Shown here piece by piece: positions 11,255-61,930 of a stretch of DNA of 64,000 nucleotides. The stretch is taken from contig JAOTOM010004789.1 of the NCBI GenBank assembly GCA_034440615.1, positions 248,001-312,000 on the forward strand. The letters are read 5' to 3'. This stretch comes from Ashinkailepas kermadecensis (taxonomy: Eukaryota; Arthropoda; Thecostraca; Neolepadidae). The notes beneath the pieces were generated by a model that did not search any database, had not been told where the DNA came from, and was given only the letters and a program-made list of their open reading frames with translations. Made by a program: the position numbers and the translations under genes. How positions within the stretch are numbered: position 1 is the first letter of the stretch; each line of letters starts with the position of its first letter.

Positions 11255-13350
11255 GTAAGCTAATAAGCCCATGGTTCTACCGGTGTAGACGCTACACCAA
11301 CTAGACCACTCGCTAGGAAACGTCAGATAGCATTGTAAGAGTCACGGCCAGGCATTCATAAATGCAGCGTCACCAAGTGGTTCGGCCATCTCGTGTTGTG
11401 ATGCGGTGTGACGACCTGGGTAGGTCGCGGCCGGTGAACCGGTGCAAGGATGGCGACCACATATCGGCCTGAAATAGCCACTTGTTGCTGATCTTTCAGC
11501 TTGCGGGGCACTTCCAAACCCTCTTCAAAGCGAATGCGCTTCTTCCTTTGTTAGTTAACCCAGCTGAGAAAAGACCGTTCTCGACATTGTCAGATCAAGA
11601 AATAAAGGGGAGAAATTGAAAAGCGAATTCAGAGACAAGGTGAAAATGACTTCCAATATTTCGATGCATTTGGTATTCGCTTTGAACTACTAAAAGCTTT
11701 TACCAAACCCATCCCCCTCCATTTATACCGACACCGAGCAGTTTACGTTCACCCTGTGAGGCAGTTAACGGCGCTGGATGAGTGGGCGTGGGTTACGGAG
11801 TCGCCGTGCTGGCGACACAGGTGACAGGATCGCGCATCATGCCGCTGCCACAGAAATCCTCCAGACGGACGGCAGCTGCACTCTCGGCACCACGTGATGG
11901 TGTACCTGTACGCCATGTTGTGTCCAGTTTCGGTGGAAGGACATGCGGTCGCCAAATAAGCACAACTTACGTCGAAAAAGTCGGTTCTGGGAGATCGGCG
12001 TGAGAAATAAAGTCACGAGGCTTTATTTAAAGATTGCGAGTGCTTCAGAAGAAGCAATGAGATAACGCTGGGAAATCACCATTTAGGGCAAAGTTGCTCC
12101 ACATGCGCTGTTATTGCCTATTCAATACAAGATATGGAGCCATTTTTGTTGTCCATATAAATGGTGACTGTCGGGTATGGTCAGGTCGGTTGGCCGATGT
12201 GAGCTTCCTTCCATGGGTTTCTCCACATATTTCGGATAGGGAGGGAGGGAGGGGATGGGGCGAAAGGGTTGCATGCCGATTTTTCATGCAACGCCCTAGG
12301 CGTAACGATAAATTTCACGAAGGTTGGGTATGAGGGAGACGAGTCCACATACCCCATCTCCAACGGTGACTATCCCCATGCTTCTTTCATCAGAGACTTG
12401 CCTAGATTCTTCATAATATTCTTCATAATATTCTTCATAATATTCTTCATAATATTCATCATAATATTTATAGACTTCGCCCTAGATACTACATATTATT
12501 ATCGAATGGCTCTGGTGCAATTTCGATGTAACCATCAGTCGCAAAATAAATAAGGCAAACGAAGCTAGTATGGTGAGGGGTACCAGTGTAGTAGGTTAAT
12601 GTATTAACCTATAACCATGGCACTCTTCCTAACTACTCACTGTACAGAATATAGTATAGGTAACAGAAGAGTAGCATGTTGCTAGAAGTAAACACGGGAC
12701 CAAGGTATAAAGGTCGCCATATTTTGTTCCACTTGTCAAGATAAAAAATATCTAAGTTAATCGGACTATACAGGCGGGTGCAAATGAAATGTTGTCTACG
12801 AAAAGGACGATCAATGCATTTTTATTTCGTGAAATAGTAATTGACTGGTTTCATGTACTTTCCTTACCAGCCCAAAAGTTGTCTGCTGGATGCATTAGTT
12901 TTTGGACACTTCGGAGCCTAAATGAATGAATGGGCAACGACGCCATGCATGAGAATGCGTTGAGATGGTATTTCGAGCCGGGCCCCGGCCCCTGGCCCCC
13001 TGTGGGTGTCTCTGTAGGACATGTACATTTAAAAAATTACATTGTTGAATTGTTGGCGACAAATAGTGTTCCGTGTGTGGTGGCAGCATGTGATGATAAT
13101 TAGTTAGGAGGACAGGAGATGCGAGACCATGGGTGTTACTTTATAAAGTTGGATGACCTTTTCATGGCCAAAGTCGCCCCGAAAGCCATTCGTATCTAGT
13201 GCATGCCCATATGCCATAAGTCCAATGGTTAGGCTTCAGTTTGGTTGGGGGATGGGGAAATCGATGATTGAGGGGCCACATCAATGACTGAGTGGGCCAG
13301 TGCCTCCTTAGCATATACAAAGTGACTCCCCTGCGCGTGACTGGGGCTAA
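11255..13350. other. Intron sequence with a short 15-bp repeat
   Basis: Mostly unassigned. Around 12410-12468 the word ttcataatattc is repeated with a 15-bp period about four times. I see no gene. Confidence 0.45.
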
Positions 13351-13589
13351 GGCTTGACCTGCTGGACGGCGTGACTGTCTACAGACCGAACGGCTTGACC
13401 TGCTGGACGGTGTGACTGTCTACAGGCCAAAAGGCTTGACCTGCTGGACGGTGTGACTGTCTACAGGCCAAAAGGCTTGACCTGCTGGACGGTGTGACTG
13501 TCTACAGGCCAAAAGGCTTGACCTGCTGGACGGCGTGACTGTCTACAGGCCAAAAGGCTTGACCTGCTGGACGGCATGTTTGTTTACAG
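13351..13589. repeat. 41-bp minisatellite that repeats the 3' splice site of exon 4
   Basis: Six units of ggcttgacctgctggacgg followed by gtgactgtctacaggccaaa, starting at 13351, 13392, 13433, 13474, 13515 and 13556. The last unit runs straight into exon 4, where gtttacag|gccgaaag replaces ctacag|gccaaaag. The array is therefore a tandem repetition of the exon 4 acceptor with a few flanking bases. Confidence 0.9.
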
Positions 13590-13756
13590 GCCGAAAGTGA
13601 CGAAAGGCTAAGTCTCACGGCCGAGTTTATTGCCGGAATCCGCCTGCTGAAACTCAACGCACTGGAGTTTATCTACGAGAAGAAGATTCAGCATGTCCGG
13701 AAAAGGGAACTGCGTCTTCTGCTAAAGGACTCGTTGTTCTGGGCTTTGAACAGTAC
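13590..13756 (+). CDS. Sur: Exon 4: SUR-like ABCC transporter, TMD1 intracellular loop (3' end uncertain)
   Basis: Starts in phase 0 after gtttacag and encodes DERLSLTAEFIAGIRLLKL, the highly conserved ABCC loop (xNERLKxTxExLxGIKxLKLYAWE in relatives). It continues with EFIYEKKI and RKRELRLLL. Exon 5 must be entered in phase 2. Phase 2 donors after this point are weak: tt|GTTCTG ending at 13735, ac|GTGCGG ending at 13756 and gg|GTAAAA ending at 13834. The best-looking donor, GTACGT at 13753, gives phase 1. I give 13756 as a placeholder; the start is firm and the end is not. The coding sequence near the end also contains a short duplication (ctgggctttgaacagta twice). Confidence 0.75.
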
Positions 13757-21640: not shown

Positions 21641-23977
21641 AATACAACGAAGAATGGCTCTTAGATGCTCCTGGGTTTTAGACATTGCGTGTAAAGAAAG
21701 CATACGACCTTCAATATACCAGGAGGTGCTGAGTTGACATCAAAAGTAACGTTAAGGATTATACTTTATTACTCAACGTTTCGGCCAGGGACCATCGTCA
21801 GGAGTGATATAAAAATGTCAAGTTTAGCAATTGAAAAAAAAAAGCACGCGAGAAAAAAAAGCTTGCAAAAGACACCTGGAATGCAGAAAAGCCTCCTCAG
21901 TGGTGCAGACACTTAAAGAAACTCCAAACCAGAAACAAACTATGTCAAGATAGAATCCTCTGAGGAAGCCCGAGCCGATGGTCCACATACATATCGATAC
22001 ATACACTCACGCACATATATAGACATAGATCCAATATAACGCGTAATACATAACATATAATTTATGTTTATGTAATTTAAGTGATATACCAAGACGTCGT
22101 TTGCGTGTTTAGTTGCGGCCGTAGATTACGTATGTGTAGAGATTCGAGGACCTTTAGATCAGCGTTGTCCCTGGCTGTTGCTAGAATTTCTACTTTGAAG
22201 TTTGCGTTAGTGTCGCTGTGTTCCATGTTAGAATGTTTGTCGATCATGTGTTCGCCTGAAGGTGTGTATGCTCTTCGAAGTCTGGCATCTCCCAAGTGCT
22301 CATTGTACCTATCCCTGATACTACGTTTGGTTTCACCGACATAAAATATTCCAAGACAGCGGTTGCACGTTATTTTATAAACTACGTTTTTCCGCGTGCA
22401 TCTACCTTTGAGCCCGTTGATACAGGTGTGGCAGGTTCTTCTACCAGCAGGGCATGGCGGAATTTCCAGGGCTGAGCGGACCAGGTAAGATTTCAGCGTA
22501 GGTCCGCTAGTCCAGGCTACCCTAACATGGTTTAGATGAGACGAACGGATGGCTGCGTTTACCTGTCGACATAGTTGGTCATCGACAAATGGAAGTCTCA
22601 TGTAAACATAGTTGGGATTACTACCCGCTCGATGCCGACGTTGCCCACTTATCCTACTCCTGTTGTGAGGGTGAACAGCACGAGCGGCGGAGTGTACCCG
22701 ATGTGCTGGGTATCCGTTTTCCAGGAAAAGAGTTGTCATCTTCTCAAGGCTCCGCTCGCATGAAATAGTATCGGAGGAGACTCGTGCTGCTCTCCTCATT
22801 TGGGATGTTAAAACGGCCTTTTTAGTAGCCATCGGGTGGGCCGAATCATAGTGCAAGATGATGGGGGCTGCCATAGGTTTAAAGTACAGTTCGGTGGTGT
22901 AGCTCCCATCAGCCTGAACTACAAACAACGTATCAAGGAAAGGAATCGAACTGCTATGACCAGTGTGTTCTAAGGTGAACTTGATGCTGGAGTGTTGTTG
23001 GTTAATTTCTGCAAAGAAGTCGAGCAGAGAGGCCAAGCCATGTATCCAAACACCAAAAATATCGTCTATATACCTCATGTAGAGAGCTGGTTTCAAATCA
23101 TACGAAGCTAAGAAGATCGACTCAAGGCGGTGCATAAAAGCAATCGCTAAAGGAGGTGCACATCGGTTACCCATAGCCACTCCTTTTGTTTGCTTGTACA
23201 TGGAGTTACCGAAACGTATGAGGTTATTGCTGAAAATATGTGTTAGTAATTTCACACAGTCCTGTACCCCAATCCCAAAAAGACAAATGTCATCCAGATT
23301 GTCCTCGATCAGACGAATCACAGCATCTATTCCCTCCTTTATCGGAATGCTGCCATATAGATTTTTCACGTCCATGGTGAAAACAATACTGCCTTCCGGA
23401 AGTTTGGTAGGGAACGTTTTTTTCACCCTCTGTAGGTACGACTCCGTGTTTGTCAGATGGGCGGGAACCAACGCTAGTATCTGGACCAGAATCTTGCTCA
23501 AGAACCAAGATAACTTGTCTAGGGGGTCACCACTCGCCGACACTATAGGGCGCAGTGGAACCTCTAGTTTGTGGTTTTTGGGGAGCCCGTATAATTCCGC
23601 TGTGCGGCTGGAATGAGGAAGGAGAGATAACACTATGTCTTTATGTAACTTCCCTGATAAAGTTTCCTTGATAATAGTACGTGTTTCAATTTCGAGACGT
23701 TTGGTAGGGTTTGGCTGGGAAGAAATGCTCTGATAATCGTCCGTTATTTTACTGGCCTTTTCAATGTAATCCGTTTTGTTTAGCACGACGAATCCTTTGC
23801 ATTTATCTGACGGCTTTACTATTACATTATCGTTGTTTTTCATTTCCCGAAGTACTTCCTTCTGTTTCGCATAATTGTCCGACCTTTTGTTCGATGCTTT
23901 GTTGTGATATTTATATGCTTTTAGAACTTTTGTTTTTAAATCTTTCAACTCAGATTCTAATTGAGTTGTGGCTCTCG
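21641..23977 (-). mobile_element. Penelope-like element, left copy of an inverted pair (5'-truncated)
   Basis: From 23977 down to about 21641 the minus strand matches the + strand copy at 24925-27139 almost base for base, including the 3' untranslated part. The 3' end extends through gtataatcct-taacgttac to a terminal block ending near 21641, also found at 29951-30031 and in the 45.4-kb foldback. The 5' end is cut at the codon for the PRATTQ segment, so the N-terminal part present in the right copy is missing. The two copies meet head to head, with 3' ends pointing outward. Confidence 0.85.
21776..21805 (-). ncRNA. Hammerhead-ribozyme-like core in PLE 3' region (left copy)
   Basis: On the minus strand CTGACGA, then TGGTCCCTGGCC, then GAAACG. 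CUGANGA and GAAA are the invariant halves of the hammerhead core, and GGUC/GGCC can form helix II with a three-base loop. One extra U lies next to the helix. PLEs are known to carry hammerhead motifs in their terminal repeats. I could not draw a convincing helix I, so activity is not claimed. Confidence 0.35.
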
Positions 23978-24089
23978 GTGTCAAGCACTTGTCTTCCGGG
24001 AAGTACCCTCCTGCAGGTACCGTGTCCAAGTCGCTTGCCTGAAAATGCCCAGAAGATCGAGTCTCCTGTTTCCTCAAGTGTTGCAGCAA
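22077..24089 (-). CDS. Penelope-like reverse transcriptase with GIY-YIG endonuclease (left copy)
   Basis: An intact 670-codon frame. Domain order is an N-terminal Lys-rich part, reverse transcriptase with FTMDVKNLYGSIP (motif A Asp), GVAMGNRCAPP (motif B) and MRYIDDIF (motif C, YIDD), then a Cys-rich linker and a C-terminal GIY-YIG nuclease. The nuclease shows VVYKITC, FYVGETKRS, and RYNEH with the conserved Arg and Glu. This RT plus GIY-YIG pairing defines Penelope-like retroelements. The first 37 or so residues (upstream of 23977) are not shared with the right copy, so the apparent start is probably chance. It differs from the right copy at about ten residues out of 640. Confidence 0.85.
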   Translation of the reverse strand: MLQHLRKQETRSSGHFQASDLDTVPAGGYFPEDKCLTPRATTQLESELKDLKTKVLKAYKYHNKASNKRSDNYAKQKEVLREMKNNDNVIVKPSDKCKGFVVLNKTDYIEKASKITDDYQSISSQPNPTKRLEIETRTIIKETLSGKLHKDIVLSLLPHSSRTAELYGLPKNHKLEVPLRPIVSASGDPLDKLSWFLSKILVQILALVPAHLTNTESYLQRVKKTFPTKLPEGSIVFTMDVKNLYGSIPIKEGIDAVIRLIEDNLDDICLFGIGVQDCVKLLTHIFSNNLIRFGNSMYKQTKGVAMGNRCAPPLAIAFMHRLESIFLASYDLKPALYMRYIDDIFGVWIHGLASLLDFFAEINQQHSSIKFTLEHTGHSSSIPFLDTLFVVQADGSYTTELYFKPMAAPIILHYDSAHPMATKKAVLTSQMRRAARVSSDTISCERSLEKMTTLFLENGYPAHRVHSAARAVHPHNRSRISGQRRHRAGSNPNYVYMRLPFVDDQLCRQVNAAIRSSHLNHVRVAWTSGPTLKSYLVRSALEIPPCPAGRRTCHTCINGLKGRCTRKNVVYKITCNRCLGIFYVGETKRSIRDRYNEHLGDARLRRAYTPSGEHMIDKHSNMEHSDTNANFKVEILATARDNADLKVLESLHIRNLRPQLNTQTTSWYIT

Positions 24090-24924
24090 CGGAAGAAGAA
24101 GTCTCCAGTTCGACGCTTCGGCCCAATCAGAGCTCTAGGGACTCCACTTCACTACCCCTAGAAACCAGTCATCTCTTGCCTGAGGAGTCGGAGGAGGACA
24201 AACACTGCGGCCCAGTGAAAACAGCTGTTTGTAGTGATGTTGGCGCTTCACCACGTAGTGTTGTCGATTTTCGCTGCTGTGCGGACAGGGTCTGGTGCGC
24301 TTCGTTGTTTAGTGTGTTCGTGCCCAGCGTTGTGACTGTTTGGAGCTTTGGGTGGGCTTTGGTCATGCGTGGGTGGTCTCTGTGTTTGACGATCTCCAGC
24401 GTTGTTTCTGGAGTCAGAAACTGCGGCGTGAGGCCAGCAGCCGTCCGCAGCGCACCACAAGAGGACGAACTTCACCTAGGTACACATTCATCGTACCAAC
24501 CACCTACGCCACTCCCGGATAAAAATAATTTACTTCACCACGCGGCTACCAGTGGAAAAAGCTCGGGTAGTTGCATTACTTCTGGCACCCACGGTACGGA
24601 CACCAACGGCGATGGCACTGAACAATATCGTACAAATCGCACGTCTAAACTAAGTACGTTACCTCTAGACTCAGATATATTGGGATTGCTTGACAAAGGC
24701 CCCAATTTTGCGTTAGCTCAAAAAGTAGATCGTAGCTGCTTGGAAAAGGCAGAATCAGGCGTAGAAAGGGCGATCTATGGTTTGCGGTGGAGGAATGTGA
24801 GGGAGACAAAACAGCAAACTGTACCTCAGGTACCGCGGGCAGGCTTATCACAAAGCACCTCTAGCACAGGTCATTCAAAGCTTCGCCCCATGTTTCCCGA
24901 CACTCCTGCATACCAACCACCGAG
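23978..24924 (+). mobile_element. 5' part of the right Penelope-like element
   Basis: Roughly 950 bp between the inverted arms. The + frame here is open and joins the RT frame. Its last 100 residues contain LLDKGPNFALAQKV and ERAIYGLRWR, which resemble the conserved N-terminal segment of PLE proteins (Leu-Gly-Pro-Lys/Asn-Phe-Ala). The part before about 24365 has no recognisable coding signal. Confidence 0.55.
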
Positions 24925-26821
24925 AGCCACAACTCAATTAGAATCGGAGTTGAAAGATTTAAAAACAAAAGTTCTAAAAGCATATAAATATCACAACAAA
25001 GCATCGAACAAAAGGTCGCACAATTATGCGAAACAGAAGGAAGTACTTCGGGAAATGAAAAACAACGATAATGTAATAGTAAAGCCGTCAGATAAATGCA
25101 AAGGATTCGTCGTGCTAAACAAAACGGATTACATTGAAAAGGCCAGTAAAATAACGGACGATTATCAGAGCATTTCTTCCCAGCCAAACCCTACCAAACG
25201 TCTCGAAATTGAAACACGTACTATTATCAAGGAAACTTTATCAGGGAAGTTACATAAAGACATAGTGTTATCTCTCCTTCCTCATTCCAGCCGCACAGCG
25301 GAATTATACGGGCTCCCCAAAAACCACAAACTAGAGGTTCAACTGCGCCCTATAGTGTCGGCGAGTGGTGACCCCCTAGACAAGTTATCTTGGTTCTTGA
25401 GCAAGATTCTGGTCCAGATACTAGCGTTGGTTCCCGCCCATCTGACAAACACGGAGTCGTACCTACAGAGGGTGAAAGAAACGTTCCCTACCAAACTTCC
25501 GGAAGGCAGTATTGTCTTCACCATGGACGTGAAAAATCTATATGGCAGCATTCCGATAAAGGAGGGAATAGATGCTGTGATTCGTCTAATCGAGGACAAT
25601 CTGGATGACATTTGTCTTTTTGGGATTGGGGTACAGGACTGTGTGAAATTACTAACACATATTTTCAGCAATAACCTCATACGTTTCGGTAACTCCATGT
25701 ACAAGCAAACAAAAGGAGTGGCTATGGGTAACCGATGTGCACCTCCTTTAGCGATTGCTTTTATGCACCGCCTTGAGTCGATCTTCATAGCTTCGTATGA
25801 TTTGAAACCAGCTCTCTACATGAGGTATATAGACGATATTTTTGGTGTTTGGACACATGGCTTGGCCTCTCTGCTCGACTTCTTTGCAGAAATTAACCAA
25901 CAACACTCCAGCATCAAGTTCACCTTAGAACACACTGGTCATAGCAGTTCGGTTCCTTTCCTTGATACGTTGTTTGTAGTTCAGGCTGATGGGAGCTACA
26001 CCACCGAACTGTACTTTAAACCTATGACAGCCCCCATCATCTTGCACTATGATTCGGCCCACCCGATGGCTACTAAAAAGGCCGTTTTAACATCCCAAAT
26101 GAGGAGAGCAGCACGAGTCTCCTCCGATACTATTTCATGCGAGCGGAGCCTTGAGAAGATGACAACTCTTTTCCTGGAAAACGGATACCCAGCACATCGG
26201 GTACACTCCGCCGCTCGTGCTGTTCACCCTCACAACAGGAGTAGGATAAGTGGGCAACGTCGGCATCGAGCGGGTAGTAATCCCAACTATGTTTACATGA
26301 TACTTCCATTTGTCGATGACCAACTATGTCGACAGGTAAACGCAGCCATCCGTTCGTCTCATCTAAACCATGTTAGAGTAGCCTGGACTAGCGGACCTAC
26401 GCTGAAATCTTACCTGGTCCGCTCAGCCCTGGAAATTCCGCCATGCCCTGCTGGTAGAAGAACCTGCCACACCTGTATCAACGGGCTCAAAGGTAGATGC
26501 ACGCGGAAAAACGTAGTTTATAAAATAACGTGCAACCGCTGTCTTGGAATATTTTATGTCGGTGAAACCAAACGTAGTATCAGGGATAGGTACAATGAGC
26601 ACTTGGGAGATGCCAGACTTCGAAGAGCATACACACCTTTAGGCGAACACATGATCGACAAACATTCTAACATGGAACACAGCGACACTAACGCAAACTT
26701 CAAAGTAGAAATTCTAGCAACAGCCAGGGACAACGCTGATCTAAAGGTCCTCGAAACTCTACACATACGTAATCTACGGCCGCAACTAAACACGCAAACG
26801 ACGTCTTGGTATATCACTTAA
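24365..26821 (+). CDS. Penelope-like reverse transcriptase with GIY-YIG endonuclease (right copy)
   Basis: An open frame of about 818 codons counted from the Met at 24365. The same frame stays open further upstream to 23711, but there it reads the antisense of the left copy, so the true start is not certain. It carries the N-terminal GPNFAL segment, RT motifs with YIDD, a Cys cluster (CPAGRRTCHTC, C-x2-C) and the GIY-YIG domain ending just before TAA at 26819. PLEs copy RNA by target-primed synthesis using the GIY-YIG nuclease to nick DNA. The lack of frameshifts or stops in both copies suggests recent insertion. No intron is visible. Confidence 0.85.
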   Translation: MRGWSLCLTISSVVSGVRNCGVRPAAVRSAPQEDELHLGTHSSYQPPTPLPDKNNLLHHAATSGKSSGSCITSGTHGTDTNGDGTEQYRTNRTSKLSTLPLDSDILGLLDKGPNFALAQKVDRSCLEKAESGVERAIYGLRWRNVRETKQQTVPQVPRAGLSQSTSSTGHSKLRPMFPDTPAYQPPRATTQLESELKDLKTKVLKAYKYHNKASNKRSHNYAKQKEVLREMKNNDNVIVKPSDKCKGFVVLNKTDYIEKASKITDDYQSISSQPNPTKRLEIETRTIIKETLSGKLHKDIVLSLLPHSSRTAELYGLPKNHKLEVQLRPIVSASGDPLDKLSWFLSKILVQILALVPAHLTNTESYLQRVKETFPTKLPEGSIVFTMDVKNLYGSIPIKEGIDAVIRLIEDNLDDICLFGIGVQDCVKLLTHIFSNNLIRFGNSMYKQTKGVAMGNRCAPPLAIAFMHRLESIFIASYDLKPALYMRYIDDIFGVWTHGLASLLDFFAEINQQHSSIKFTLEHTGHSSSVPFLDTLFVVQADGSYTTELYFKPMTAPIILHYDSAHPMATKKAVLTSQMRRAARVSSDTISCERSLEKMTTLFLENGYPAHRVHSAARAVHPHNRSRISGQRRHRAGSNPNYVYMILPFVDDQLCRQVNAAIRSSHLNHVRVAWTSGPTLKSYLVRSALEIPPCPAGRRTCHTCINGLKGRCTRKNVVYKITCNRCLGIFYVGETKRSIRDRYNEHLGDARLRRAYTPLGEHMIDKHSNMEHSDTNANFKVEILATARDNADLKVLETLHIRNLRPQLNTQTTSWYIT

Positions 26822-27139
26822 ATTACATAAACATAAATTATATGTTATGTATTACGCGTTATATTGGATCTATGTCTATATATGTGCGTGAGTGTATGTA
26901 TCGATATGTATGTGGACCATCGGCTCGGGCTTCCTCAGAGGATTCCATCTTGACATAGTTTGTTTCTGGTTTGGAGTTTCTTTAAGTGTCTGCACCACTG
27001 AGGAGGCTTTTCTGCATTCCACGTGTCTTTTGCACGCTTTTTTTCTCGCGTGCTTTTTTTTTTCAATTGCTAAACTTGACATTTTTATATCACTCCTGAC
27101 GATGGCCCCTGGCCGAAACGTTGAGTAATAAAGTATAAT
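26822..27139 (+). mobile_element. 3' untranslated part of right Penelope-like element, interrupted
   Basis: Inverted match to 21765-22076. It ends at gagtaataaagtataat where the 2.8-kb element is inserted. The missing terminal 81 bp resume at 29951. Confidence 0.8.
27096..27120 (+). ncRNA. Hammerhead-ribozyme-like core in PLE 3' region (right copy)
   Basis: CTGACGA, TGGCCCCTGGCC, GAAACG. Compared with the left copy the helix II pair changes from U-G to C-G, which keeps pairing. Downstream, ACGTT could pair with AACGT of the terminal block as helix III, but in this copy that block is displaced to 29951 by the 2.8-kb insertion. Confidence 0.35.
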
Positions 27140-27742
27140 CACGGATAATAGTAAACGGATCGGAAACTCTCGGGCGGCACTTTGATGTTTGCGACCACCG
27201 ACCGATACTAGCGACATCTATCGGACGATCGGAGAAGTACTCCTGGATAGGTGATGCGAAGTACACCCCGTCGAAAAAGCTTGACGGGATGGGGAAATAT
27301 AGCTGAATCGGCCTTCTACCACGCGTCGTTTGAAAAAAATGCGCCTTCGGCGCCAGCCGGGGACGCATACTCCAGTAGCCGCCATCACTTCGGCCGCCGT
27401 ATAGAACCATGAAGCTCGTGACTAACTAACCTGTGCCGACTAACTGAGGGAAGCGGAGTGTCATGAGAACCGGCAGAAAAACAAGGGCGAGCACCTGCCC
27501 CCTCCCATTCCAACTGTATATGCCTGGGACTCGTCTGGGGCAGGCCAATTCCATTTCGATGCCCCCCCGCAAAAAAGGCTGCTGATTGGCCAAAGACCGA
27601 TTGACTGATTGGCCCTGGCAGTCACATTTCCCCCTGAAGTATATTCTTTGACAAACGAGGGGACCCTGAGCAGGCATAGGGGCACATGATGAACATTGAT
27701 TGGGCCGAGGGGCCCCGGAACAGCCATTGGAGCCCTCTGAGG

Positions 27743-36799: not shown

Positions 36800-37345
36800 A
36801 TTGAGGATGTCCCAGTCACTGATGACCTTGTCTCAGGTTGACTCGGGGATGACCTAGTCACTGCTGCTTGTCTCAGGTTGTGCAAGTAACTCTGTGCCAT
36901 TGAGGATGACCTAGGATGCGTTACCTCTGGTGACTGAGGATGACCTAGTCAGCGTTACCTCTGGTGACTGAGGAAGACATAGTCAGAGTTACTTGGTGAC
37001 TGAGGAAGACATAGTCAGAGCTCTGGTCCTGATGATGACCTAGTCAGCGTTACCTCTGGTGACTGAGGATGACCTAGTCAGCGTTACCTCTGGTGACTGA
37101 GGATGACCTAGTCAGCGTTACCTCTGGTGACTGAGGATGACCTAGTCAGCGTTACCTCTGGTGACTGAGGATGACCTAGTCACTTCTCTGGTGACTGAGG
37201 AAGACCTAGTCAGAGTTACCTCTGGTGTTTGGGAGCCTGTTTAGTGATGATGACCTAGTCAGCGTTACCTCTGGTGTTTGAGGATGATATAGTCAGATAC
37301 CCGGCGATTGAGGGTGACCTAGTCAGAGTTGCCTCGTGACTAAGG
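36800..37345. repeat. ~34-bp minisatellite leading into exon 9
   Basis: The unit gatgacctagtcagcgttac followed by ctctggtgactgag is repeated about a dozen times with deletions. The last stretch before exon 9 (gttacctgctgattcag|gacgatcc) lines up loosely with the unit (gttacctctggtgactgag|gatgacct). Confidence 0.85.
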
Positions 37346-37372
37346 ATGACCCAGTGTTACCTGCTGATTCAG

Positions 37373-38762: not shown

Positions 38763-40048
38763 GTGAGCAACGGCGCGCCCTCTGGTGCTGGACACTCGGC
38801 GGTGGATGTGGCGCGAGGACGCGGGGCTCCGTCAGCTGTGTGTGGTTGTTTCTCTGTGTGTGGAACTGCGGAATCGTGCGATGCAGCCGTGTTGCGGAGA
38901 CAAAATACGAACGCTTTGAGCATCCTGAAATATTTATATTCAACGTAATATAAATATTTAATTCATGCATTATTTCATCAAATAATGCAGCTTAGGTTGC
39001 CAAATGCGCCATGCACTCCGTGAGTCAAGGACAAATACCAAAGTTGGTTCAAAAGGCATGTTTTTCGGCCTCACGTTAGCGGCAGGTAGTGATGAAGACA
39101 TGTGACTCACGCGATAGTACGCGGAAGTGAATCACTCTTGTTTTGTACCTTGATTTCTGCAGTACGTCAGACCAATGGCCACTATAGCTAAAAGACAATG
39201 CCTATGCTGTGCTCATTCTGAGGTTAAGAGCAAAGCATTACCTTGACCTCCCATTTAGAGCTCAAGTGAACATGGGAAAATGTGTGGTAAGACCTGCATA
39301 CAAACACACTGTGCACAGAGTGCATTAAAAACACAGCGGAAAAAAATGACAGCTGACGGTGACGTGGTGTGCATGAGTAATAATCCCATCTACTTAACGT
39401 AAAACCTGACACAAGATCCGAATGAGCAATGGGTGCAGATAATAAGGTTGGACAGTGGACGTGCTGTCAGGTATTGACTAAGCTGTTGCATCGACGGTGT
39501 TGACCGATGTGCTGCGGATTCCCACAGCAGGACACAAAGACCTCACATCATCGCATCCACTCATGCATGCCAACATTTAGCTGGATGTGCGTCGGACCGG
39601 CATGTGTGGAGGAAAGTTCTCGAGAGGGAGATCGGAGGCTGTCCTATGTGACATAAAGTATCGAATTGTTATCTCCTGTTTGAAAGACTAGCAGTTTCAA
39701 ACAATACTTAGCGCTGGCGATCGGATGTCGGTTCAGGTGGGCCGAATTGTGCCAACTTGGTTGTGTGGAATCCGCGATATATACACTCAGAATCCTAAGA
39801 GTTCCTGCAAAGCAGCCACTATGAAACCTGGTGGTAGCCGCAATCCAAAAATGGCGACGCAATCTGTGGTGCGCATGTGCATGTGCGTGCATTCACGAGT
39901 ATGTTGATATGGGCATCTGTGTGAATGTCTGTGTATTCTTTGGTGTTGGTTGTACTACGCTCGTGCGGACCACAAGTGTGTGAAATAGAGCGTATCGACC
40001 TGTCCACCTACCCACGTGCGGCCCGACTGACGGCCGTGCCTGTGCCAG
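38763..40048. other. Intron sequence, nothing recognised
   Basis: About 1.3 kb with no supported gene or repeat. Confidence 0.4.
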
Positions 40049-40467
40049 GTGACGCCCGACCTCAGCCGGGACAAGTTCTCCACGTTCCGTCTGGCCACCG
40101 TGCGGCACCACGTGTCGCTGCGCCACCACATCTCGCACGTGCTGCCCATGAGTCTGGACGCTGGCGGGGAGCAGCTGGGGGCGGCGCCGCGTCGCCGCTG
40201 GACCACGGCCGGCCGGCGGGCCGCCGGGCTGACCTCGCCGACCTCGCCGCCGGCGCACCCTGCCGCCCTTCGGCCGCCGTACGCGCGCTCCAGCTCGCTG
40301 CGGACCGCGGCGTCGCCGACCGGCTCGGCCGAGCCGGGCGGCGACCGGCTGGCGCTGCAGCGGATGATGTCGTCTCCGCCCAACATGCCGTCGCCGCGCC
40401 AGCCGCGCACCAGCTTCGTGTCGGAGGTCGACCGGTGGCCCAATCTGCTGCGCAGGATCACCAGACG
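40049..40467 (+). CDS. Sur: Exon 11: SUR-like ABCC transporter, central linker
   Basis: About 140 codons from gtgccag| in phase 0 to CG|GTCAGT in phase 2. The product is hydrophilic and rich in Arg, Ser, Pro and Ala (for example SPTSPPAHPAALRPPYARSSS), without domain similarity. In ABCC proteins this place between NBD1 and TMD2 is a disordered regulatory linker and this copy is unusually long. Assignment rests on open frame, GC-rich codon use, splice sites and phase fit to exons 10 and 12. Confidence 0.75.
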
Positions 40468-40735
40468 GTCAGTCCTGTCACAGGGTCACCAGGCGGTCTA
40501 CTGTCACAGGGCCACCAGACGATCAGTACTGGCACAGGGTCACCAGACGGTCAGCATTGTCACAGGATCACCAGACAGTCTACTGTCACAGGGCCACCAG
40601 ACGGTCAGTACTGTCACATGGTCATCAGACGGTCAGTACTGTCACATGGTCATCAGACGGTCAGCATTGTCACAGGATCACCAGACAGTCTACTGTCACA
40701 GGGCCACCAGACGGTCAGTACTGCCACTGTACAGT
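40454..40735. repeat. ~31-bp minisatellite that repeats the 5' splice site of exon 11
   Basis: About nine units of gtcaccagacggtcagtactgtcacag type. The first lies at the exon 11 end itself (aggatcaccagacg|gtcagt), so the last 14 or so exon bases and the donor are copied along the intron. Most units keep ACG|GTCAG. Confidence 0.9.
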
Positions 40736-41149
40736 TGTTGGCGTTAGCGAACGGTCAGGCTATGGCTTGTAGCGCAGCTTACCGGGATGGACCGCACGTC
40801 AGGCAATGTTAAATGGACTACGGCTGTTCGCATGAATAAAGAATTGGATGGCAGGCACATGAATATTACAAGGTTTAATAAATGTGAAAAACAACGAAAG
40901 ACCGGAGGCATCAGAGTTATTTTCATTTGTAGCACTACGTTTCCTATACGAGTTACTTCACTGCTTAGCCGGTATTTCGTGGTTTTACTTTGCGTGACTT
41001 TTCCATTTATTTTCTTCTACGTGCATGTACCATGAAGTTCACCATATGGTTCCCGAATGGTCGATTGTTTTTCGTCGCGGCTTTATGCAGACTACACCAA
41101 GCGCTACCACAGACAATACGTGCAGTAGAGGAGCCGGGCATTGACACTC

Positions 41150-41837
41150 TGCACTATTCACAGAAGTACAATAGCTCCCCTGACACCCTGGCTCCTCCAA
41201 TACGCTCTGTACTCTCAACAGAAACACAACAGCCCCTCTGACACCCTGCCCCCTAAAAGCTCACGCTCTGTCCTCTCCACAGAAACACAACAGCTCTTCT
41301 GACACCCTGCCCCATAAAAAGCTCACGTTCTGTCCTCTCCACAGAAACACAACAGCCCCTCTGACACCCTGCCCCCTAAAAAGCTCACGCTCTGTCCTCT
41401 CCACAGAAACACAACAGCCCCTCTGACACCCTGCCCCTAAAAAGATCACGCTCTGTCCTCTCCACAGAAACAACAGCTCTTCTGACACCCTGCCCCATAA
41501 AAAGCTCACGTTCTGTCCTCTCCACAGAAACACAACAGCCCCTCTGACACCCTGCCCCCTAAAAAAGTTCACGCTCTGTCCTCTCCACAGAAACACAACA
41601 TCCCCTCTGACACCCTGCCCCCTAAAAAGCTCACGCTCTGTCCTCTCCACAGAAACACAACAGCCCCTCTGACACCCTGCCCCTTAAAAAGCTCACGCTC
41701 TGTCCTCTCCACAGAAACACAACAGCCCCTCTGACACCCTGCCCCTAAAAAGCTCACGCTCTGTCCTCTCCACAGAAACACAACAGCCCCTCTGACACCC
41801 TGCCCCATAAAAAGCTCACGCTCTGTCCTCTCCACAG
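41150..41837. repeat. ~62-bp minisatellite that repeats the 3' splice site of exon 12
   Basis: About eleven units of ctgacaccctgccccctaaa, aagctcacgctctgtcctct and ccacagaaacacaacagcccc. The final tctgtcctctccacag|aaacacag is the real acceptor of exon 12; all earlier units carry the same pyrimidine tract, AG and first exon bases. Confidence 0.92.
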
Positions 41838-42010
41838 AAACACAGCCACTCGGCACACGCCGTCGCCGGAGGATGTGCGACAGGCGCCGCAGCAGGCGCT
41901 GCCTCTGTCCGGCTCAGACACCGCTCGGTCACCGCCGCCGCCGCCGCCGCCGCCGGCCGACCGTACCGTATCTGTCACATCTACCCTCAGCGCCAGCTAC
42001 GAGGACGAAG
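41838..42010 (+). CDS. Sur: Exon 12: SUR-like ABCC transporter, proline-rich linker
   Basis: Phase 2 in, phase 1 out, with the acceptor cctctccacag and donor GAAG|GTCAGC. It encodes a polar segment with PSPEDVRQAPQQALPL and eight consecutive prolines coded by (CCG)8, then STLSASYEDE. No domain is present. It continues the disordered NBD1-TMD2 linker. The phases on both sides fit exons 11 and 13 exactly. Confidence 0.75.
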
Positions 42011-43345: not shown

Positions 43346-43376
43346 CGCTCCGCAGTCCTGATGGCTGATCTGAACA

Positions 43377-44365
43377 TCCATACCGACGGTAAGCTACTCC
43401 AGCCAAACACCCATACCGACGGTAAGCTACTCCAGCCAAACACCCATACCGACGGTAAGCTACTGCAGCCAAACACCCATACCGACGGTAAGCTACTGCA
43501 GCCAAACACCCATACCGACGGTAAGCTACTGCAGCCAAACACTTATACCGACGGTAAGCTACTGCAGCCAAACACCCATACCGACGGTAAGCTACTGAAG
43601 CCAAGCACCCATACCGACGGTAGGCTACCGCAGCCAAACACCCATACCGACGGTAAGCTACTGCAGCCAAACACCCATACCGACGGTGAGCTACTGCAGC
43701 CAAACACCCGTACCGACGGTAAGCTACTGCAGCCAAACGCCCATACCGACGGTAAGCTACTGCAGCCAAACACCCATACCGACGGTAAGCTACTGCAGCC
43801 AAACACCCATACCGACGGTAAGTTACTGCAGCCAAACACCCATACCGACGGTGAGCTACTGCAGCCAAACACCCGTACCGACGGTAAGCTACTGCAGCCA
43901 AACACCCATGCCGACGGTAAGCTACTGGAGCCAAACACCCATACCGACGGTAAGCTACTGCAGCCAAACACCCATACCGACGGTAAGCTACTGCAGCCAA
44001 ACACCCATACCGACTGCAAGCTACTGCAGCCAAGCACCCGTACCGACGGTAAGCTACTCCAGCCAAACACCCATACCGACGGTAAGCTACTCCAGCCGAA
44101 CACCCATACCGACGGTAAGCTACTGGAGCCAAACACCTATACCGACGGTAAGCTACTGCAGCCAAACACCCATAACGACGGTAAGCTACTCCAGCCAAAC
44201 ACCCATACCGACGGTAAGCTACTGCAGCCAAGCACCCATACCGACGGTAAGCTACTGCAGCCAAGCACCCATACCGACGGTAAGTTACTCCAGCCAAACA
44301 CCCATACCGACGGTAAGCTACTCCAGCCAAACACCCATACCGCCGGTAAGCTACTTCAGCTCGCC
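43377..44365. repeat. 33-bp minisatellite, about 30 copies
   Basis: The unit acccataccgacggtaagct + actgcagccaaac is 33 bp, so both strands stay open for more than 360 codons with an 11-residue period. Each unit has CG|GTAAGC (a strong donor) and ctgcag (an acceptor-like end) 12 bp apart. The array fills the intron upstream of exon 14. Confidence 0.95.
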
Positions 44366-48790: not shown

Positions 48791-48986
48791 CGAGCTGCAG
48801 AGGCTGGACAGCATAGCGCGGTCGCCCGTGCTGTCGCATTTTGCCGAGACTCAGAGCGGCCTCGCGGTAGTTCGGGCGTTCGGCCACCAGAGGCGCTTCT
48901 TGGCGGTCATGCTGCAGTGCATCGACCTGCACCTGCTCACCACACTCATCTACGAGTCTGGGCAGCGCTGGCTCGGCATCGCCTTG
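48791..48986 (+). CDS. Sur: Exon 16: SUR-like ABCC transporter, TMD2 intracellular loop
   Basis: The first base completes an Ile codon. The exon encodes ELQRLDSIARSPVLSHFAET, QSGLAVVRAF, RRF and LIYESGQRWLGIAL. LSHFAET followed by Gly-Leu and RAF/RAY is the best family marker in the window; MRPs have xSHFxETxxGxxxIRAF and SURs LSHFAETxxGL. The acceptor is ctccgattgtag and the donor TTG|GTGAGT, phase 0. Confidence 0.93.
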
Positions 48987-49621
48987 GTGAGTTCACGGGC
49001 ATTCTGGCAACGTTTATCACATTCTGATAATACGATGATATTTGGGACACGCTAAGGCGCAGCGTCAATCTCGCATGTGCAGACTCTTGGTTGGTTAGTT
49101 GAATTCTTGTGAGGCGCTTCTTGTGAGGCGGTTTTGATGGGATTTTTTTCTGGTGATTTATTAGCGAAGATCGGATAAAGCCCGTGAGGGTTGGGTATGC
49201 AGCTGACATGGGGAGGATGAAGCTGTTCATTAAAAAAAATTACACAACCGACAACACCCCCGCATTTCAGTGAACCTGTAAATAACTATGGCAACCAACT
49301 ACAATGCTTTGATGTGGAAATGACGATATATGCGCCGAATTCCTTTTAAGCCTATTTCTGCGCAATCGCACACCCTCCTTCCCTCTGCCCTACCCATACC
49401 AAATCCCGCTTCTTGGCCAGTCTGTATGGCTGTATCCGATCCTACATACCATTCCATATCCCATCCAGTCTCACTTATATCCCGTTCTCTCTTCGATCTC
49501 GCATCCCGTCCCTTATGCCCTCTCGGTCCATCTCTCGTCTTATTCTCCTGTCGCGTATTCGCAACGGCCGGTCTTTTTCAGCACCCGACGATGAGGGAGT
49601 CGTGGCCGTGTCAGTATGTAC

Positions 49622-50360
49622 ACCTCTTCCCCAGGACTACCTCTGCGCCATGACGGTGTCTGGTGTGATTCCTACCACATGACTACCTCGGCGCCGTGAC
49701 GGTGTCTGGTGTAACGGTGTGATCTCTACCACAAGACTACCTCGGCACGGTGACGGTGTCTGGTGTGATGGTGTGGTCACCTCTGCCCCACGATTATCTC
49801 GGCGCCGTGATGGTGTATGGTGTGACCTACTCTGTCACAGCACCGTGACGGTGTAATCTCTGCCACATAACTACCTCGGCGCGGTGATGATGTGATCACC
49901 TCTGGTACACGACTACCTCGGCGCCGTGATGGTGTGATCACCTCTACCACAGGACTACCTCACCGCCGTGATGGTGTTCGACCGGACGGTGTGATCTCTG
50001 CCGCAGGACTACCTCGGCGTCGTGATCGTGTCCGGTGTGACGGTGTGATATCTCCTCTGCCGCAGGACTACCTCGGCGCCGTGATCGTGTCCGGTGTGAC
50101 GGTGTGATTTCTCCTCTGCCGCAGGACTACCTCGGCGCCGTGATCGTGTCCGGTGTGACGGTGTGATATCTCCCCTGCCGCAGGACTACCTCGGCGCCGT
50201 GATCGTGTCCGGTGTGACGGTGTGATATCTCCTCTGCCGCAGGACTACCTCGGCTCCGTGATCGTGTCCGGTGTGACTGTGTGATATCTCCTCTGCCGCA
50301 GGACTACCTCGGCGCCGTGATCGTGTCCGGTGTGACGGTGTGATATCTCCTCTGCCGCAG
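49622..50360. repeat. 59-bp minisatellite that repeats the 3' splice site and start of exon 17
   Basis: The unit is tctcctctgccgcag|gacta + cctcggcgccgtgatcgtgt + ccggtgtgacggtgtgata. Six clean copies end near 50062, 50122, 50181, 50239, 50298 and 50360, with older diverged ones back to 49622. The last copy is the real acceptor of exon 17. In every earlier copy the exon 17 frame runs into a TGA (gtg tga) after about 14 codons. Confidence 0.95.
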
Positions 50361-50604
50361 GACTACCTCGGCGCCGTGATCGTGTTTGTGTCAACCGTGA
50401 CGACGGTGACGGTGGCCGTGACCAGCGACGCCGAGGTGCCGTCGGCCATGGTTGGCCTGGCCATCAACTACACCCTGCTCATCCCCATGTACCTGGTGTG
50501 GGTGGTGCGCTCCCTCAGTGCCGTCGAGATGTACATGTGCGCGGTGGAGCGTGTGCACAAGTACACCAATCTCAACATTGAAGACTACAGGAAGAAGAAG
50601 ATAG
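50361..50604 (+). CDS. Sur: Exon 17: SUR-like ABCC transporter, last TMD2 helices
   Basis: Phase 0 in, phase 1 out at AG|GTGAGA. It encodes DYLGAVIVFVSTVTTVTVAV, then VGLAINYTLLIPMYLVWVVRSLSAVEMYMCAVERVHKYT. The pair VGLxxxYxLxxxxxLxWxVR and ExxxxxVERVxxY is invariant in ABCC proteins and marks the end of TMD2 before NBD2. Confidence 0.95.
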
Positions 50605-55324: not shown

Positions 55325-56411
55325 CATTGCTATGGGATCACCCTTGGGCCCAAGGGTGTCTTGTTTGCGCAAGCTTATATGGCCAGTGTCGAATAACATG
55401 TCTTACATGATCCTGCTGTGACGCCGTGGATTTATTGTCGCTATGTTGATGATACCCCAGTCGATGCCAAGGATGATGTGAGCCTAGACACTGAAAAATC
55501 GTCTGGAGGAGGAGTCGGGCCTCACTTTTACCACGGAACACTCGGTGCGAGAGCAAATTAACTTTCTCGATGTGTCTATTGACGCTGGTAGCGACAACTT
55601 TATCACCAATGTGCACCGAAAACCAAGTGGTGTAGGAATGTGCTTAAACGGAGAGAGTGATTGCCCCATGAGGTATAATACAAGTGTAGTTAAGGCTTAT
55701 GTTCTCAGAGCTATCGTACACTGTTCAACCTGGACATTGGTGAATCAAGAATTGACTCGAGTGAAGCAAATGCTGGTGAATAATAACTACCCGATTTCAG
55801 TTATTGATGAAGAAATATACAAAGACATCTCGCTGCAGAAAAACCCTACCCCATCTAGTAGTGCACCGGTCAACAGGCATACATTATTTTACAAAAACAG
55901 CACGTCCCCAGCCTACAAGCAAGATGAAAAAGTACTTCGAAATATCGTGGGACGTAACTGCAAAACTACTTCCCAAGAGGACGAACTGAAACTTGTTGTA
56001 TACTATAAGAACCCAACGACTTTTTCCCTCATTGTCAAAAACAACCTGTCTGAAGACACGACTCCCCTCAAGCAGTCTAGCGTAGTCTACCATTATAAAT
56101 GCAACATAGGAGACTGTGCACTCCTCCTCCACAGTGGCTACATAGGACTCACAACCACAACATCAAGCAGACGCCTTACGATGCATTTGCGAAGCGGAGG
56201 ATCACACACACACACTATGACACATAATGATTATCTGAACAGAAATTTGCTCACATCGAACACCAAGATCATAGCAAAACAACCAAACAGGAGAAGGTTA
56301 CAAGTGCTGGAAGCCATCCCGATTAGAGAGAAGAACCCCTCGTTAACCGTCAGGTCAATGCACGGGGTACCCTTTTCCTGCGTGATGGACCGACTGTGGG
56401 ACCACGGTTAA

Positions 56412-59766: not shown

Positions 59767-59780
59767 CTCCCGGGCTGTGT

Positions 59781-61435
59781 CGCACGGTGGCCAGTGGGAC
59801 CGTCGCACAGTGGCCAGTGGGACCGTCACACAGTGGCCAGTGGGACTGTCGCGCAGTGGCCAGTGGGACTGTCGCACAGTGGCCAGTGGGACTGTCGCAC
59901 AGTGGCCAGTGGGACCGTCACACAGTGGCCAGTGGGACTGTCGCACAGTGGCCAGTGAGACTGTTACACAGTGGCCAGTGGGACTGTTACACAGTGGCCA
60001 GTGGGACTATCGCACAGTGGCCAGTGGGACTGTTACACAGTGGCCAGTGGGACTGTCGCACAGTGGCCAGTGGGACTGTCACACAGTGGCCAGTGGGACT
60101 GTCACACAGTGGCCAGTGGGACTGTCACACAGTAGCCAGTGGGGCTGTCGCACAGTGGCCAGTGGGGCTGTCGCACAGTGGCCAGTGGGACTGTCGCACA
60201 GTGGCCAGTGGGGCTGTCGCACAGTGGCCAGTGGGACTGTCGCACAGTGGCCAGTGGGACTGTCGCACAGTGGCCAGTGGGGATGTCGCACAGTGGCCAG
60301 TGGGACTGTCGCACAGTGGCCAGTGGGGCTGTCGCACAATGGCCAGTGGGACTATCGCACAGTGGCCAGTGGGGCTGTCACACAGTGGCCAGTGGGACCG
60401 TCACACAGTGGCCAGTAGGATCGTTACACAATGGCCAGTGGGACTGTTACACAGTGGCCAGTGGGACCGTCGCACAGTGGCCAGTGGGACTGTTACACAG
60501 TGGCCAGTGGGACCGTCACACAGTGGCCAGTGGGACTGTCACACAGTGGCCAGTGGGACTGTCACACAGTGGCCAGTGGGACTCTCGCACAGTGGCCAGT
60601 GGGACCGTCACACAATGGTCAGCGGGACCGTCACACAGTGGCCAGTGGGACCGTCGCACAGTGGCCAGTGGGACTGTTACACAGTGTCCAGTGGGACCGT
60701 CACACAGTGTCCAGTGGGGCCGTCACACAGTGGCCAGTGGGACCGTCACACAGTGGCCAGTGGGACCGTCGCACGGTGGCCAGTGGGACTGTTACACAGT
60801 GGCCAGTGGGACCGTCGCACGGTGGCCAGTGGGACTGTTACACAGTGGCCAGCGGGACCGTCACACAATGGCCAGTGGGACCGTCATATAGTGGTCAGTG
60901 GGACCGTCACACAGTGGCCAGTGGGACCGTCACACAGTGGCCAGTGGGACCGTCACACAATGGTCAGTGGGACTGTTACACAGTGGCCAGTGGGACCGTC
61001 GCACTGTGGCCAGTGTGACTGTTACAGTGGCCAGCGGGACCGTCACACAATGGCCAGTGGGACCGTCATATAGTGGTCAGTGGGACCGTCACACAGTGGC
61101 CAGTGGACCGTCACACAGTGGCCAGTGGGATCGTCACACAGTGGCCAGTGGGACCGTCACACAGTGGCCAGTGGGACAGTCACACAGTGGCCAGTGGGAC
61201 TGGCACACAGTGGCCAGTGGGACCGTCACACAGTGGCCACTGGGACCGTCACACAGTGGCCAGTGGGACCGTCACACAATGGCCAGTGGGACCGTCACAC
61301 AGTGGCCAGAGGGACCGTCACACAATGGCCAGTGAGACCGTCACACAATGACCAGTGGAATTGTCACATGGTGGCCAGTGGGACCGTCACACAATGGCCA
61401 GTGGGACCGTCACACACAGTGGCCAGTAGGACCGT
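59781..61435. repeat. 23-bp minisatellite, about 70 copies, in the presumed 3' UTR
   Basis: The unit cagtggccagtgggactgtcgca (23 bp) and its variants (gaccgtcaca, gactgttaca) begin 15 bp after the stop codon. Single-base variants cluster, with GTCGCA units toward the 5' side and GTCACA units toward the 3' side, which suggests expansion from inside. Frames up to 539 codons across it are artefacts, since 23-bp units rotate through all three frames. No AATAAA was seen directly before the array. Confidence 0.95.
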
Positions 61436-61930
61436 CATATAGTGGCCAGTGGGATCGTTTGGTGGTCCAACGGATATAAAGAGGAGTTGATGTCTTTGTT
61501 AAAATGCCGAATAGAGCACAATGCTTTATTATGTTTATACATGTTGTAATTTGCTTCGACATCGAAAAGTTCTGTATTTTTATGACGGTGCGCCGCACGT
61601 AATGCCGTTGATATTTGTGTTGTAAGGAATGCAACTCGAGATTGATCAATGTTGTGAGGCTTGAAGCCAAACTCCATTACATGCCGGAAAGTCGCCTCGT
61701 TTTTACGCCGTTTTTTATACGTGATGCACGATATATGGTGCAAGTGGTCGAACACAACCGACAATACTGAATATACTACTCTGTGCCTGACTCCTGTCGC
61801 CAGTTTTAAATTATTTGCATTGAAGAAGGCCATTATCAGAGCATCTACATGGAACAACGCAGTTCCTGTGCAGCTGGTGCCACGCACAAATGCGCATACC
61901 ACACATCAATCAAGTACACTGTCACGCCCC
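61436..61930 (-). other. Unrecognised open frame of 155 codons
   Basis: The minus strand is open from 61902 to 61435, with ordinary amino-acid composition (for example FRHVMEFGFKPHNIDQS). I do not recognise a family. Its last codons read into the 23-bp array, so at most the N-terminal 145 or so residues could be real. It may be a transposon remnant or chance. Confidence 0.2.

Follow-up and report, generated by a model that had tools for sequence, protein, structure and literature searches.

Exon k of the Sur gene of the barnacle Ashinkailepas kermadecensis is preceded by 13 copies of its own splice acceptor, each joined to about 25 bases of the start of the exon, in a tandem array of 14 units when the genuine one is counted. 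The array belongs to a described class, the mirages of amphioxus, and the unusual point is frequency: among 74 splice sites tested in two genes of the contig, 14 are accompanied by junction-spanning copies. We consider it very probable that the exon k array is a mirage that was seeded from the exon into the intron, grew and was homogenised, retains a working last copy and needs no function. Most likely it arose as a side effect of a kind of duplication to which splice junctions are often subject here. The DNA analysed, referred to as the window, is a stretch of 64,000 nucleotides (positions 248,001 to 312,000 of contig JAOTOM010004789.1, assembly GCA_034440615.1). Its principal features are listed in Table 1, and positions are those of the window unless the contig is named.

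The host gene was identified using a frame of the window that, with stops read as X, matches ABCC proteins in the Protein Data Bank. The gene encodes a sulfonylurea-receptor-like transporter: the closest proteins are Sur (ABCC8/9-like), and NBD1, TMD2 and NBD2 follow in order. The best protein relative is the Sur of the barnacle Amphibalanus amphitrite (59% identity, 91% of the query covered); that of a second barnacle, Pollicipes pollicipes, is 53% identical with 85% of the query covered. In addition to the 15 exons that run from NBD1 to the stop codon, five upstream exons in the window were added by tblastn with the barnacle Sur proteins, the first of which (u1) is weak, and four more were found upstream on the contig. 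The sequence-only reading had numbered exons j and k as 16 and 17; the number 17 does not hold, as exon k is the 20th of the 24 exons mapped by similarity, a total to which unmapped exons could add.

Table 1. Features of the Sur locus in the window (positions of the window; scores are those of the junction comparisons).
Feature	Position	Strand	Basis, score or remark
41-bp boundary array on exon u4 acceptor (13590)	13349-13597	+	score 31
Sur exons a-o (15 exons), NBD1 to stop	31841-59766	+	consistent phases, one open frame of 1264 aa, single stop
34-bp diverged array, ends 18 bp before exon c acceptor (37373); weaker case	36901-37355	+	score 19
28-bp boundary array on exon e donor (last exon base 40467)	40453-40727	+	score 37
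62-bp boundary array on exon f acceptor (41838)	41202-41844	+	score 41
Exon j (19th of 24 mapped)	48791-48986	+	spliced open frame; SUR1 and barnacle Sur alignments
Old diverged units of exon k array (7 and a remnant)	49601-49977	+	acceptor AG gone in 5 of 7
Junction unit, exon copy from 50007, clean on exon side alone	49978-50031	+	unit alignment
Five full clean 59-bp units	50032-50326	+	false acceptors end at 50065, 50124, 50183, 50242, 50301
Genuine acceptor CAG of exon k	50358-50360	+	phase, spliced frame, SUR1 and barnacle Sur alignments
Exon k (20th of 24 mapped)	50361-50604	+	first 25 nt common to array units

The claim that the last copy alone is the real acceptor was borne out by phase, by the spliced frame of 1264 residues, and by comparison with the two barnacle Sur proteins and SUR1. 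The donor GT of exon j lies at 48987, in phase 0. The piece encoded by exon j aligns to SUR1 residues 1186-1250 and that encoded by exon k to residues 1251-1326. In the read-through alignment an intronic Gln before exon k faces Met1251 of SUR1; when the spliced Leu is placed, we read the alignment as Leu opposite Met1251 and Asp opposite Glu1252, with no residue missing or extra. Both Amphibalanus and Pollicipes Sur have WLGIALDYLGAVIVF at the exon j/k junction, and this fixes the genuine acceptor at the position given in Table 1. The junction 48986 to 50361 thus fits both SUR1 and barnacle Sur. The Pollicipes model is labelled low quality and diverges a few residues past the junction, so it is the Amphibalanus protein alone that supports exon k over its whole length.

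Tandem copies of the acceptor and exon start were confirmed both by TRF and by aligning the copies in register. TRF placed a 59-bp unit at 49926-50385, with 7.9 copies and 92% matches, and a related array with a 54-bp unit at 49624-49769. Each unit consists of about 34 nt of intron end and 25 nt of exon start, and the 25 exon bases said to be shared proved to be so (GACTACCTCGGCGCCGTGATCGTGT), with one difference each in units 50007 and 50243, units being named here by their first exon base. These bases begin at 49635, 49681, 49735, 49792, 49869, 49911 and 49953 in the older units and at 50007, 50066, 50125, 50184, 50243, 50302 and 50361 in the younger ones, the last being genuine; the spacings, in order, are 46, 54, 57, 77, 42, 42 and 54, then 59 six times. 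A remnant near 49841, which keeps CAG and lacks the exon core, lies outside the count of 13 upstream units. All 9 matches listed for the array in a search of the species' own assembly fall within one locus.

The units differ in age. Five (50066 to 50302) are 97-98% identical to one another and 98-100% identical to the genuine unit, and unit 50066 is identical to it. Six clean units had been counted previously; five are clean in full, whereas the sixth (50007) has 77% identity to the genuine unit and is clean on its exon side only. The seven older units show 70-79% identity to the genuine unit and 66-86% to one another. The clean block is therefore homogenised (97-100%) and the old units are diverged, and homogenisation extends to the edge unit that is joined to the exon. 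Since the genuine unit is identical to a false one, the genuine copy takes part in homogenisation.

Copies of splice boundaries were also found at other exons. In the window, 14 arrays were compared with 39 Sur splice-site windows, some upstream exon edges being approximate, and five of the 14 matched their adjoining splice site best: the acceptors of exons u4, c, f and k and the donor of exon e. In intron e-f, the donor is copied at the start and the acceptor at the end. In this comparison exon c scored 16 and two unrelated pairs scored 15-16, and the case for exon c therefore rests also on adjacency and register. The remaining nine arrays had no support as boundary copies against the 39 windows (unit and start: 40-bp, 1171; 95-bp, 7171; 24-bp, 15424; 39-bp, 36511; 38-bp, 37591; 33-bp, 43373; 57-bp, 44950; 33-bp, 45616; 23-bp, 59779). 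Two more Sur arrays lie upstream on the contig, one on the E3 acceptor and one adjoining the E4 donor.

A second gene, for an FHOD formin, was chosen for the coding signal of one exon; it lies on the minus strand, some 108 kb beyond the Sur gene on the contig. The best relative of the chosen piece is from Amphibalanus (79% over 80% of the piece), and 19 exons were mapped (contig positions 415445-465614). Recurrence was then measured at 74 splice sites (39 Sur, 35 FHOD) as a junction-spanning copy within 700 bp in the site's own intron with a score of at least 17, for which at least one copy, as opposed to a long array, was needed. Sites whose edges were not exactly fixed (Sur E2 and u1 at both ends, the E3 donor, and the E4 and u2 acceptors) were left out, as was the ambiguous FHOD x17 acceptor; the FHOD x16 donor was set by hand to the second-best candidate after inspection of the sequence.

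Such copies were present at 14 of the 74 sites, where 0.03 would be expected. Only 2 of 5094 mismatched pairs reached 17, and the best site below the threshold scored 11. Exon k scored 60, against a control maximum of 20; the two weakest sites, Sur c (19) and the Sur E4 donor (17), are within the control range, and adjacency was also used for them. Eight acceptors (Sur k, f, E3, u4 and c; FHOD x7, x4 and x5) and six donors (Sur e and E4; FHOD x16, x13, x4 and x15) are copied. FHOD x7 has one 71-bp copy and x13 two copies, and x5 was identified by the recurrence test alone. Of the 18 array-site pairs no more than 40 bp apart, 11 have a TRF unit that itself spans the junction (score of at least 16), compared with about 3 of 2853 non-adjacent pairs; in the other seven the TRF unit has no junction match, and of these FHOD x7 and x15 matched on direct inspection. 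In FHOD, both boundaries of exon x4 are copied, and the array at the x16 donor has 27 copies, of which 26 keep GT.

Splice junctions in the two genes examined, both on this contig, are thus frequently copied, and the occurrence of copies at acceptors and donors alike argues for a general duplication process as opposed to a device of exon k. A broader proposition, that in this barnacle lineage the process favours splice junctions, with about one fifth of splice sites carrying copies of themselves, is offered tentatively and is somewhat doubtful.

For exon k, the proposed sequence of events would begin with copying of its boundary into the intron. This direction is suggested by the exon part of the unit, which encodes conserved Sur residues: DYLGAVIV is conserved in the two barnacle proteins and corresponds to EYIGACVV in SUR1. 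Growth and homogenisation would have followed by unequal exchange or replication slippage. The last copy is the working acceptor, probably because it alone is joined to the rest of exon k and its donor, and exon definition may be the reason that it wins. The upstream copies are intronic, and any that were used would lead to a stop codon, with probable decay of the misspliced mRNA. The array would need no function, given how frequent boundary copying is at the splice junctions of both genes.

The strongest alternative is that the array is a decoy, or poison array, whose upstream acceptors are used at some rate, so that a stop after 13 codons and mRNA decay set the level of Sur. We regard this as unlikely. 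All 13 upstream copies do end in a stop. The six youngest meet TGA after 13 codons (DYLGAVIVSGVTV, two units having one change), in keeping with the figure of about 14 codons proposed for every copy, whereas the older units stop after 8-37 codons. The acceptors also resemble one another closely: across 38 positions (-16 to +22) five upstream sites differ from the genuine one at 0-1, which supports the notion of a row of equivalent acceptors, but the sixth differs at five. Furthermore, there is no AG in the 59 nt, exactly one unit, that separate the genuine acceptor from the false one before it. Under the scanning rule for 3′ splice sites (PMC1431707), the branch site used by the genuine acceptor should then lie in the last unit or immediately upstream of it, and each clean unit probably carries a branch site of its own, although no clear yUnAy site was found in the unit by eye. 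The near-identical acceptors and the AG-free stretch would suit a decoy. Against it stand the junction-spanning copies in two unrelated genes, which affect 14 of 74 sites and donors as well as acceptors, and the suggestion made for amphioxus mirages that they do not interfere with splicing (PMC3087553, PMC3902484).

Loss of AG from old units was considered in the same light. Every unit had been said to carry CAG; this is true of 8 of the 13 upstream units, but five of the seven older ones read CAT, CAA, CAC, CAT and CAC instead. At the G of the AG, the seven old units show all four bases between them, whereas the two preceding bases do not vary and the following ones scarcely do (nominal p 0.006 by a binomial test; 0.017 for the occurrence of three derived states at the named column). 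In this one array, a small sample, the pattern would fit the removal of acceptors whose use is harmful, as a decoy might predict, and two small donor arrays show a similar loss of GT (E4, 2 of 4 copies; x13, 2 of 2). When the ten other arrays were pooled, however, AG/GT cells were changed less often than flanking cells (11/184 vs. 168/1656). Losses per array were 0/7 for E3, 0/5 for u4, 0/10 for f, 0/6 for the x4 acceptor, 0/5 for the x4 donor, 1/27 for x16, 1/9 for e and 4/17 for c. Selective purging of false acceptors was accordingly dropped, as the pooled arrays show no general excess of AG/GT change.

A second alternative, which we judge improbable, is that the array is a live intermediate of intron gain, in which a unit within the array could turn into a new exon or provide the acceptor of a new intron. 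There is precedent in a potato RdRp gene, which acquired an intron by duplication of a boundary (PMC4974935), and the authors of the amphioxus work proposed this route for mirages (PMC3087553). As described, the potato duplication crosses an intron-exon boundary and includes the polypyrimidine tract, the acceptor and the start of the exon; being of the boundary type, it is a nearer precedent for the exon k array than the duplication of AG|GT-containing segments that had been invoked. That model is not supported here, as the boundary reads CAGGAC and the 59-bp unit has AGGA there and no AGGT. The barnacle array differs from both forms of tandem-duplication intron gain (Rogers AGGT; potato RdRp) in the missing AGGT, in its greater number of copies and in that no new intron is seen. 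The stops that follow all 13 upstream copies also weigh against an intermediate, and exon k matches a continuous stretch of Amphibalanus Sur (residues 1677-1756), from which it follows that there is no new intron inside exon k. In a separate comparison, the tail of the unit was considered as a piece of the body of the exon and the match was not significant (p 0.08).

That the array is an ordinary intronic minisatellite touching an exon by chance appears very doubtful. Tandem arrays are abundant on this contig, with 52 non-redundant arrays in 144 kb (unit 15-120, at least 2.4 copies) or 74 in 130 kb (unit 15-160, at least 2 copies), but their overlap with exon edges exceeds what random placement within the same introns would give: 8 of 73 compared with 1.7 (P 0.0006), or 10 of 75 compared with 2.4 under a looser limit (P 0.0001). 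For arrays listed by hand in the window the figure was 4 of 16, compared with 0.52 (P 0.0008) or, with a looser limit, 0.87 (P 0.009). Moreover, the copies span the junction itself far more often than mismatched controls do. Creation or multiplication of the copies by the assembler is the least plausible explanation. Tandem arrays are error-prone and the copy number comes from one assembly, but private substitutions distinguish the units, the older units are 66-86% identical to one another, and the two genes have boundary copies, unrelated to these, at 13 further sites.

The mirages to which we assign the array are minisatellite-like duplications of intron-exon boundaries described in the amphioxus genes Adh3, TnC and PGBD5 and the globins BflGb6 and BflGb9; they affect the acceptor or the donor side, many but not all of their units keep AG or GT, their inner units are homogenised and their edge units diverged, RT-PCR suggests that regular splicing is undisturbed, and their length differs between haplotypes (PMC3087553, PMC3902484). 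On these accounts, the barnacle array is alike in its tandem units of intron end and exon start, in the copying of either boundary at this locus and in FHOD, and in the retention of AG by many but not all units. It differs in its host, an arthropod and not a cephalochordate, in its 59-bp unit (150-160 bp in the globins and 10-72 bp in Adh3), and in the number of sites affected in two genes. Transcripts of the amphioxus globins and Adh3 were checked, whereas the barnacle array is known here from DNA sequence. A related case is the 31-bp VNTR of human CBS (c.1444_1467+7; PMC2630376), which has 16-21 copies and varies in copy number. To judge from its name, this short tandem repeat takes in 24 exonic and 7 intronic nt across a donor; unlike the exon k array it is on the donor side and is a human polymorphism. 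Among the matches listed in the open-access literature, there was no report of boundary arrays in a barnacle or other arthropod.

Boundary minisatellites were described gene by gene in amphioxus, and the proportion of sites copied in two barnacle genes suggests a general process that could be widespread in a genome. Arrays in which a single correct acceptor or donor stands in a row of near-identical copies offer a direct test of spliceosome choice, and boundary arrays are material for the tandem-duplication route of intron gain. If duplication does prefer junctions, this genome would serve as a permanent natural experiment in how splice sites are chosen and would hold a store of intermediates of intron gain.

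Several other features of the locus were recorded. The 307-aa open frame at 55488-56411 matched no Pfam family at E 0.01. A 33-bp unit repeated 30 times between exons g and h (43373-44360) contains GGTAAGC, a donor-like motif, and gave no strong match to any of the 39 Sur splice-site windows. The reading frame of exon e is open from 40031 to 40747, a span that takes in the whole 28-bp donor array, so that splicing from a later donor would not of itself run into a stop codon there. A large Sur intron contains a near-perfect inverted repeat (21757-27140; arms 21854-23980 and 24918-27044, 99% complementary), each arm of which contains the greater part of a long open frame that matches the reverse-transcriptase family RVT_1 weakly, at a score under the cut-off for that family; these are probably two copies of a retroelement in opposite orientation. 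Finally, 73 copies of a 23-bp unit (59779-61458) begin 13 bases past the end of the Sur stop codon (59766) and probably lie in the Sur 3′ UTR.
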